Assembly (NCBI RefSeq): GCF_037076455.1
Contig: NZ_AP028679.1
Location: forward strand, 263,501-327,500
Direction of reading: 5' to 3'
Source of the DNA: Desulfoferula mesophila
GTDB lineage: Bacteria > Desulfobacterota > Desulfarculia > Desulfarculales > Desulfarculaceae
DNA length: 64,000 nt
Positions within the stretch are counted from its first letter, which is position 1. Each line of letters begins with the position of its first letter. The notes under the pieces were generated by a model. It was not told the DNA's origin. It was given only the letters and a program-made list of their open reading frames with translations, and made no database searches. The position numbers and the translations under genes were made by a program. Shown one piece after another: positions 60,672 to 63,997 of this stretch.

Positions 60672-62033
60672 TCAGACGATGTCGGTCCTGAGGTTGATGC
60701 CGTAGTCCTTGATGCGCTTCCACACCGTGACCCGGCTGACCCCCAACACCCGGGCCGCCTGGGACTGGTTGCCTCCGCACTGCCTGAGCACTTCCACCAG
60801 GTGCTGGCGGTCCAGGGAGGGCCGGCCCCGGCGGTGGGCCGGGGCGCTTTCGCCGCCGGCGATCTTGGGGGGCAGGTGCTCGGCGGCGATGAGCCCGCCG
60901 GGGCAGAGCACAAAGGCGTACTCCACCGCGTTGATCAGCTCGCGCACGTTGCCCGGCCAGGGATAGGCCAGCAGGCGCTCCATGGCGCCGGGGGTTACTC
61001 CGGTGATGGGCTTGCCGCTCTTGAGGGCGATGCGCTGGATGCCGTGGTGGGCGATGAGCGGGATGTCTTCCAGACGCCGCCGGAGGGGCGGCACGTTCAG
61101 GGGCACCACGTTGATGCGGTAAAAGAGGTCCTCGCGGAACTCGCCCTGGGCGATGAGGCTGTCCAGATCCTGGTTGGTGGCGGTGATGATGCGCACGTCC
61201 ACGTCGATGGGCTGGTGGTCGCCCACCCGCTCTATCTCGCGGTTTTCCAGCACCCGCAGGAGCTTGACCTGGGTGGCCAGGGGCACGTCGCCGATCTCGT
61301 CCAAGAAGATGTCGCCCCCGTGGGCCGCCTCGAAGCGCCCCACCCGGGTGCGCTCGGCCCCGGTGAAGGCCCCGCGCACGTGGCCGAACAGCTCGCTTTC
61401 GAGCAGGCTCTCGTTAAGGGCGGCGCAGTTCACCTTGATGAAGGGCTCCTCGCGGCGGGGGCCAAGTTGATGGATGGCCCGGGCCACCAGCTCCTTGCCG
61501 GTGCCGCTTTCCCCGTGGATGAGCACCGGGGCTTCGCTGGCGGACACGTTTTCGATGAGGTCGAACAGGCGCTGCATGGCCTCGCTGCGCCCCAGGATGC
61601 CGTAGCGGCCGTCTTCCTGGCCCCGCAGGGTGCGGCGCAGGTCGGTGATCTCCTGCTCCTTCTTGGCCAGCTCGCTGATGTCGATGAGCGTCTCCACCGC
61701 GCCCAAAGCCTGGCCGTTTTCGTCCTTGAGCACCGAGGCCCGCTTGATGACGTCCACCTGTTGGCCGTCCTTGTTGGTGATGGTGCAGCGCTTGGCCCTT
61801 ACCGAGCCGTCCACGAAAAGCTGGCACCACTTGGGCCCGGGCCCTTGGCCCACGATGCTGCATCCGGTGCAGCCCAGCACCTTGCAGTTGCGGCCCACCA
61901 GCTCGCCTTGCGAATAGCCGGTGAGCTCCTCGGCCGCCGGGTTCATGGCCACTATGGAGCCGAAGTCGTCCACCACCAGCAGGCCGTCCTGCATGGTGTC
62001 CATCACCGTCTTCCAATAGGGGGTCAAATCCAT
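60672..62033 (-). CDS. Sigma-54-dependent activator with PAS domain (Fis family)
   Basis: 453 residues. PAS about 5-125 with an unusual Cys-rich loop ('GRNCKVLGCTGCSIVGQG', then 'KWCQLF'), AAA+ with 'GESGTGKE', 'GAFTGA' and 'DEIGDVPL', and Fis helix 'QAARVLGVSRVTVWKRIKDY'. The Cys residues could bind iron-sulfur or sense sulfur or redox species. It is divergent from the selenoprotein gene, with GTTAAC repeats and a -24/-12 promoter between, so that gene is the probable target. Confidence 0.94.
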   Translation of the reverse strand: MDLTPYWKTVMDTMQDGLLVVDDFGSIVAMNPAAEELTGYSQGELVGRNCKVLGCTGCSIVGQGPGPKWCQLFVDGSVRAKRCTITNKDGQQVDVIKRASVLKDENGQALGAVETLIDISELAKKEQEITDLRRTLRGQEDGRYGILGRSEAMQRLFDLIENVSASEAPVLIHGESGTGKELVARAIHQLGPRREEPFIKVNCAALNESLLESELFGHVRGAFTGAERTRVGRFEAAHGGDIFLDEIGDVPLATQVKLLRVLENREIERVGDHQPIDVDVRIITATNQDLDSLIAQGEFREDLFYRINVVPLNVPPLRRRLEDIPLIAHHGIQRIALKSGKPITGVTPGAMERLLAYPWPGNVRELINAVEYAFVLCPGGLIAAEHLPPKIAGGESAPAHRRGRPSLDRQHLVEVLRQCGGNQSQAARVLGVSRVTVWKRIKDYGINLRTDIV

Positions 62034-62061: not shown

Positions 62062-62086
62062 GTTAACTTAATGGTTAACCGTTAAC
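62062..62086. promoter_or_regulatory. GTTAAC repeats beside the activator gene
   Basis: Three GTTAAC palindromes (62062-62067, 62074-62079, 62081-62086) start 29 bp from the activator's start codon; a fourth is at 62324-62329. They are likely binding sites of the activator for autoregulation and for the divergent gene. Confidence 0.5.
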
Positions 62087-62489
62087 GCTCCGCTTCAAGG
62101 CTTGGCCCAGGCGTTTGCCATAAAATACAGATACTTGACTGCAAGAGCCTGGCCGGGGGACGCGGGGGTCACGACCCGCCATTGCTGATAAAAGCAAAAC
62201 ACCTGCCAACTTTGCCGACCCTTTCGTGCTTTTAATGCTTCCCCACTCCGTGGCCCTGGTTGGGGTGGGTATATATCCGCTTTAATTAAAAAGATAAATA
62301 GTCTTCTCCATCAACGGGGCCGGGTTAACTCAAAGCTTCTCCAGCGGCTTACTAGGCGTTCAATTCACACTTGTTATATTAACACATGTTCAAAAACTTA
62401 ACATAAAGTTCCTTTGTCCTGGGTGTTTTAGGGACACAAAATAGACATAATCAACTGAATATCAATCAATTAAACGAGAAACCCGATAA

Positions 62490-62505
62490 TGGCATGGGTG
62501 TTGCT
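62490..62505 (+). promoter_or_regulatory. Sigma-54 (-24/-12) promoter of the selenoprotein gene
   Basis: TGGCATGGGTGTTGCT matches TGGCACGrnnnTTGCW with one change (C to T). Transcription would start near 62517, leaving a leader of about 110 nt. Confidence 0.75.
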
Positions 62506-62626: not shown

Positions 62627-63997
62627 ATGATTGCTAAAGCCCTTAGGCGCGCCTCTTTGCTGGCCCTGCTTTTGGTCGCGGGGGTGGGCGCCTCCCTGGT
62701 CCCGGCGGCCCCGGTCCAGGCCGAGGTGATGGCCAACCAGAAATGCTTGAAGTGCCACGCCGAGCTCAAGGACATGGAAAACGTGGTGGCCGGCGACTTT
62801 CAAAGCCGCTCGGGCAAGGCCAAGTCCATTTCGGTGATGGTGGCTCCGGGCAAGAACATCATCCTCAAGTTCACCCCCGAAACCACGGTGGAGAACGTCC
62901 CCAATATCAAGGCCCTCAAAAAGCCCATCCCGGTGCAGGTCACCTACAAGAAGGTGGGCTCGGACCTGGTGGCCACCGAGATCGTGGCCAAGCCGGTGAT
63001 CAAGGTCTCCGACAAGCAGCTCATCAAGGTGGACGAGCTGGCCGCCTTGGTGGCCCAGGGGCCGGACAAGGGCGGTTACACCCTGGTGGACTCCCGTCCG
63101 CCCATCCGCTTCAACGAGGGCCACATTCCCACTTCCATCAACATGCCCTTCCCCAAGATGCCCGACATGATGGGCAAGCTGCCCAAGGACAAGAGCAAGC
63201 TGGTCATCTTCTACTGTGAAGGCTTCAGATGAGTGCTCTCGCCCATGGCCGCCAGGTTGGCGGAAAAAAAGGGTTACACCAACGTCAAGGTCTTCCACGC
63301 CGGCATGCCCGCCTGGAAGAAGGCGGGCCATCCCGCCCTTACCACCTCTGATTTCGTCAAGAAACGCTTGGGCTACATCGTGGTCATCGACACCCGCGGG
63401 GTCGAGGCCGCCAAAAAGGGCCACGTGCAGGGCGCGGTGGCCATACCCAAGGCCAAGGTCATCGCCGAGCGCGAGCAGTTCCCCCTGGACACCAAGGCCT
63501 ACATCGTGCTCTACGGCCAGAACACCGACATGGCCGGTCTCAAGGATATCGCCAAGACCATCGGCACCTGGGGATATCAGAACGTGGCCATCCTGCAGGG
63601 CGGCTACGACGGCTGGGTAAAGGACAACGGGCCCATCCAGAAGGACCTGGTCAGCACCCAGATCTTCTATCTGCCCCGTCCCCACCCGGGCGAGATCACC
63701 GGCGACGAGTTCATGAACATCGTGCGCAACCATCCCCAGGGCAAGCTGATCCTGGACGTGCGCACCACCGCCGAGGCCGCCGGAGGCATGCTGCCCGGCG
63801 CGGTGAACATCCCGGTGGACGAACTCAGCGCCCGCCTGGGCGAGCTGCCCAAGGACAAGGAGATCATCACCCATTGCCGCACCGGCCTGCGCGCGGAGAT
63901 GGGCTACAACATCCTCAAGAACGCCGGATACAACTCCCGCTTCTTGAACGACAAGGTCACCATTCTCCAGACCCAGGTTTTCTGCTGCTATAAGTAG
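62627..63997 (+). CDS. Selenocysteine-containing triple-rhodanese protein with heme c motif
   Basis: Read through TGA at 63230-63232 this is a single 456-residue protein. Signal peptide about 1-32; C40-L-K-C43-H44, a c-type heme motif; rhodanese domain 1 (about 135-235) with active loop 'YC197EGFR-U202-VLSPMAARL', where U is the TGA codon at a place usually held by Cys; domain 2 (about 240-335) without an active-site Cys ('VLYGQNTD'); domain 3 (about 355-445) with C417 in 'THCRTGLRAEM'; final 'FCCYK'. A hairpin CCGCC-AGGTT-GGCGG starts 16 nt after TGA, as in bacterial SECIS elements. Likely a periplasmic sulfur or selenium transfer protein. ACGGAGGT precedes the start. Confidence 0.86.
63249..63263 (+). 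promoter_or_regulatory. SECIS-like hairpin
   Basis: Stem CCGCC/GGCGG, loop AGGTT with the GG(U) found in bacterial SECIS apical loops, 16 nt downstream of the UGA at 63230. Distance and loop fit SelB recognition. Confidence 0.7.

Follow-up and report, generated by a model that had tools for sequence, protein, structure and literature searches.

PMC13188914 already lists rhodanese-like selenoproteins of the UxxS and UxxxxU types, in agreement with the earlier note on this DNA, which had described such proteins as reported in deltaproteobacteria; because these forms are listed, the novelty that the note claimed for combining one of them with a heme motif, a signal peptide and a dedicated promoter is smaller than stated. 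The protein analysed here is encoded in a window of 64,000 nucleotides (the whole stretch of DNA that was analysed), and its family may include the listed 'rhodanese-like form 1 (UxxS)', WP_010941598.1, judged by motif only. Form 1 is a rhodanese with selenocysteine (Sec) and its UxxS fits the U202-V-L-S of the window protein and the UALS and UGMS of relatives, whereas a three-domain or heme architecture is not described for it in the available part of PMC13188914. No curated NCBIfam family was found that covers the window protein. TsoB (NF045694, rhodanese/DsbD fusion-like) shares the spacing of its UxxxxU motif with the C-x4-U of the window protein and gives a weak HMM match in domain 1, but TsoB has two Sec residues and a different second half, and the score of the window protein, 77.5 bits, falls far short of the cut-off (805). 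The rhodanese-related (seleno)protein family NF041203 (CxU) also comprises rhodaneses with Sec variants, but its motif spacing is unlike that found here and the score of 66.6 bits is far below the cut-off of 115. Weak NCBIfam matches to MoeB, PspE and similar proteins were attributed to the common rhodanese fold.

Exported and multi-domain rhodaneses are also known. ExtH of Geobacter sulfurreducens (GSU2940) is an exported rhodanese of ~49 kDa encoded in porin/cytochrome clusters (PMC5877670, PMC6148476); it differs from the window protein in its published description, which makes it a lipoprotein rather than a selenoprotein. ExtH is placed upstream of extI-extKL, and no genes of that type were found beside the window gene. 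Sud of Wolinella succinogenes (PDB 1qxn, there named sulfide dehydrogenase) is a periplasmic rhodanese-like protein and a sulfur donor for polysulfide reductase (PMC10092268), a role comparable to the one proposed for the window protein, but it is a single-domain, 137-residue chain whose sequence match to the window protein is at chance level (E 0.08). YnjE and EanB, which were fold matches to the model of the window protein, hold several rhodanese domains per chain; however, their whole-chain superposition is poor (TM about 0.2) and no Sec is reported for them.

The triple-rhodanese gene and its catalytic loops

The gene lies on the forward strand (62627..63997), ends in TAG and has a sole in-frame TGA at codon 202 (63230..63232), so that reading through the TGA gives a protein of 456 residues with Sec at position 202, in keeping with full-length and aligned relatives in which this codon aligns with TGA or TGC/TGT. 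What seems to be a stop-broken gene is almost certainly that of a conserved, selenium-containing exported protein of a sulfate-reducer-like bacterium. The standard gene reading cuts it into two at the TGA, and the family is therefore probably misannotated in many genomes. PADLOC gave no match.

Profile comparison with the rhodanese family PF00581 (143.2 bits) placed three stretches spanning both sides of the TGA, in agreement with the three domains that had been read from the sequence. Domain 1 (63008..63334) has the catalytic loop C197-E-G-F-R-U202 (C-x4-U), in which Sec is the last of six residues. Cys197 (63215..63217) occupies the canonical rhodanese catalytic position and is Cys in 48 of the 49 proteins of the main alignment (window protein included), and the TGA stands, as had been proposed, at the place of the second Cys of a C-x4-C loop, where 14 relatives have Cys. 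Bovine rhodanese has Thr at this second loop place, and the C-x4-C form is a known loop type, present in the solved rhodanese BH2092 (3nhv/3o3w). An AlphaFold model of the window protein (pLDDT 88.9, pTM 0.74) puts C197 and U202 at opposite ends of this loop, C197 directly after strand 192-196 and U202 before helix 204-214. The middle domain (63347..63634) is catalytically empty, as the earlier note had described, with Cys missing from the catalytic place in 48 of 49 proteins. The third domain (63689..63961) does have the Cys assigned to it, Cys417 in an HCRTGLR loop, which is present in all 49, and its sequence matches in the PDB are persulfide-reductase rhodanese domains. The N-terminus (residues 1-33; 62627..62725) reads as signal-peptide-like, with a predicted helix at residues 2-24, and a Cys-Cys pair at the C-terminus (residues 453-454 in FCCYK; 63983..63988) is kept only in the 15 aligned proteins nearest the window protein.

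Selenocysteine at position 202 and the SECIS hairpin

The genome containing the window (searched as one contig of 4.48 Mb) holds all four genes for which a search had been proposed: selA (612 bits), selB (393 bits), the tRNA-Sec gene selC (71.8 bits) and selD (377 bits, C1:3726958-3727884). The selD gene has an in-frame TGA and probably encodes a selenoprotein too, as is known elsewhere.

Of 21 genomes examined from the order (the window's own included), 12 encode the full-length protein with one TGA each, and a phylum sample (395 genomes) together with one class (277 genomes) yielded many more relatives, with TGA or TGA-free. Alignment of homologs at position 202, as the earlier note had suggested, showed Sec (TGA) in 35 proteins and Cys in 14, two of the latter having a loop shorter by two residues. 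At least five Sec/Cys changes are required on a maximum-likelihood tree of 47 proteins, and the sequences describe a phylum-wide family of predicted exported triple rhodaneses in which Sec and Cys have been switched at least five times. Geobacter-like bacteria and Desulfarculaceae supply Sec and Cys orthologs that form natural pairs for testing what selenium contributes to extracytoplasmic sulfur-transfer chemistry, a step in sulfur respiration about which little is known.

The view that codon 202 reflects a pseudogene or a sequencing error, for which nothing speaks beyond the in-frame stop, is refuted by conservation and has a vanishingly small probability, as the same TGA recurs in 35 proteins of the alignment, which represent many genera and families, and the coding-type substitution pattern continues past it, third-position changes being in excess both before and after the TGA when close relatives are compared. 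The GTG directly after the TGA in the window would allow two translationally coupled genes, the second starting from this GTG; however, many Sec relatives carry GCC, GCG, GGC or CCG in its place, and this reading is excluded because the codon after the TGA is often no start codon. The split would also fall inside domain 1, so that over half of the chain would lack a signal peptide, the Cys relatives are single proteins, and a SECIS is present. Homologs ending at the TGA with a separate start after it, which the earlier note had named as evidence against Sec, were not seen among the relatives (order, phylum samples and alignment). Refuted by the relatives, the two-gene reading is left with a very slight probability.

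The SECIS-type hairpin core (63249..63263, forward strand) begins 16 nt past the TGA, where a stem-loop with a GG-containing loop had been noticed, and consists of a stem (63249-63254 / 63258-63263) closed by a GGU loop (63255-63257) that lies 22 nt past the UGA. In nearly all Sec relatives the apical loop starts 21-22 nt past the TGA and its first two positions are G; this distance and the leading Gs fit the published SECIS model for bacteria (PMC13188914). On folding, which had been proposed as a check, the energy of the window hairpin taken by itself is unexceptional (z -1.17, with 26 of 200 shuffles equally good), whereas conservation and covariation support the element. For the 23 distinct Sec sequences that could be aligned gap-free from the TGA, stem covariation was 0.205 compared with 0.102 in a shuffle control that ignores relatedness (0 of 500 shuffles as high), and did not exceed 0.09 in slid versions. 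A mean of 5.7 of the 6 core stem pairs form in Sec relatives versus 2.6 of 6 in Cys relatives (relatedness uncorrected). Judged from these alignments, the putative SECIS hairpin is kept with paired changes in Sec relatives and lost in Cys relatives. Rfam returned no SECIS family match, a result of little weight given how variable these elements are among bacteria. The Sec genes of the genome, the Sec/Cys alignment and the covariation of the hairpin all support the proposal that the TGA is read as Sec, and from sequence evidence it is nearly certain that codon 202 specifies Sec, is conserved in this function and is served by a SECIS.

The heme motif and the predicted role in sulfur transfer

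The CxxCH heme c motif claimed for the protein is present at residues 40-44 (62744..62758) and in most relatives, with CX4CH in one clade, so that 38 of the 49 aligned proteins have one form or the other. A real heme is favoured because the two heme-type spacings drift with the His kept; cytochrome c assembly genes are present in the window's own genome, and no conserved second heme ligand was identified. A functional heme in the window protein is probable on these grounds. The special device coupling Sec to heme that the earlier note envisaged is not borne out across the family, in which 27 proteins have Sec and the heme motif, 8 Sec without it, 11 Cys and the motif and 3 Cys without it (n=49; relatedness uncorrected). 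Sec and the heme motif vary independently and are therefore separate traits; coupling is no defining feature, although it could still occur in the window protein.

Clusters around Cys relatives encode a LysR regulator, a DUF3373 protein (presumably an outer-membrane protein), the triple rhodanese and a PhsA-like enzyme, along with a small exported protein, an iron-sulfur subunit and a membrane subunit; the PhsA-like proteins score 502 and 569 bits versus the NCBIfam PhsA cut-off of 694. The window's own genome has a sigma-54-headed operon (L179, C1:3376377-3382865) encoding a PhsA-like enzyme, cytochromes c and b561, a triple rhodanese that has Cys only and contains two C-x4-C loops, and a rhodanese/thioredoxin-like fusion resembling TsoB. 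The Sec forms are mostly solitary save for an activator gene, and no reductase gene adjoins the window gene. In some Geobacter-like genomes (L162, L168, L173) the Sec gene is found near sulfate-assimilation-like genes.

The Cys-relative clusters, whose gene context bears on the window gene indirectly, and the operon in the window's own genome favour a partnership with a Phs/Psr-type system, to which sulfane sulfur would be passed or with which it would be reduced, and such a role in the periplasm is, by a small margin, the likelier one for this exported protein. Taken overall, the best explanation, and a fairly probable one, is a selenoprotein that is exported, belongs to a phylum-wide family of triple rhodaneses and has a putative activity in sulfur transfer or reduction. 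In the periplasm, polysulfide, thiosulfate or a persulfide would be the source of sulfane sulfur, which would be taken up as a Cys persulfide (on C417 and/or C197). Sec202 could then attack the C197 persulfide, releasing sulfide and leaving a C197-Sec202 selenenylsulfide, a step that is put forward tentatively and falls somewhat short of an even chance; alternatively, a Phs/Psr-type reductase would receive the sulfur. In proteins that have a c heme, it would supply or take electrons. The most elaborate form of this proposal, an uncharacterised phylum-wide class of exported triple rhodaneses in which the loop-end Sec acts as the resolving residue for the catalytic persulfide and electrons are drained or fed by a c heme on the same chain, is unlikely; if true, proteins with both Sec and a c heme would form a class of self-contained sulfane-sulfur reductases or oxidases.

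Two other roles are each improbable to a similar degree. The first is handling of selenium or tellurium oxyanions rather than sulfur (for example as a perselenide carrier), as suggested for the Geobacter ext cluster, where loss of extI impairs selenite and tellurite reduction (PMC5877670). The Cys-relative clusters, with their LysR regulator and predicted outer-membrane protein, resemble extH/extI loci (PMC6148476, PMC5877670), and an ExtKL-family multiheme cytochrome (NF040886) with an in-frame TGA is encoded in the window's own genome (C1:1430310-1431470), and an ExtKL-family selenoprotein adjoins a relative in one further genome (G302). However, the same Cys-relative clusters hold PhsA-like enzymes, ExtKL lies apart from the window gene, and most sampled ExtKL loci are without a triple rhodanese, which was found in 3 of 18 stretches fetched mostly around ExtKL, those three having been preselected by a known relative. 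A close link to the ext cluster is unsupported by this sampling. The second is a thiol-disulfide redox or persulfide sensor or repair protein rather than a sulfur supplier, in which C197 and Sec202 would form a redox pair linked to the heme. The C-x4-U loop as a possible redox pair, the heme motif in 38 of 49 proteins and the several Cys in the PAS domain of the activator are compatible with this role, but the invariant Cys417 sits in a classical rhodanese loop, and heme and Sec are uncorrelated.

The sigma-54 promoter and the divergent activator

The proposal of a sigma-54 promoter upstream of the gene was upheld: the window contains a single exact match (expected number 0.02), the site TGGCATGGGTGTTGCT (62490..62505, forward strand), which is conserved upstream of the gene in relatives, some of which have the full consensus. 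Nine exact sites were found in the genome, and none with the reversed control pattern. A divergent sigma-54 activator gene (60672..62033, reverse strand), encoding PAS, AAA+ (with GAFTGA) and Fis-type HTH domains, adjoins the gene in 5 relatives as well, and a sigma-54-like site with one mismatch (62193..62208, reverse strand) faces the activator gene and is found at the same position in 3 relatives. The several Cys of the activator PAS domain are conserved and may serve in metal, iron-sulfur or redox sensing. Three GTTAAC repeats lie a short way upstream of the activator gene, at 62062-62087; similar TTAAC motifs occur in relatives and are possible binding sites of the activator.
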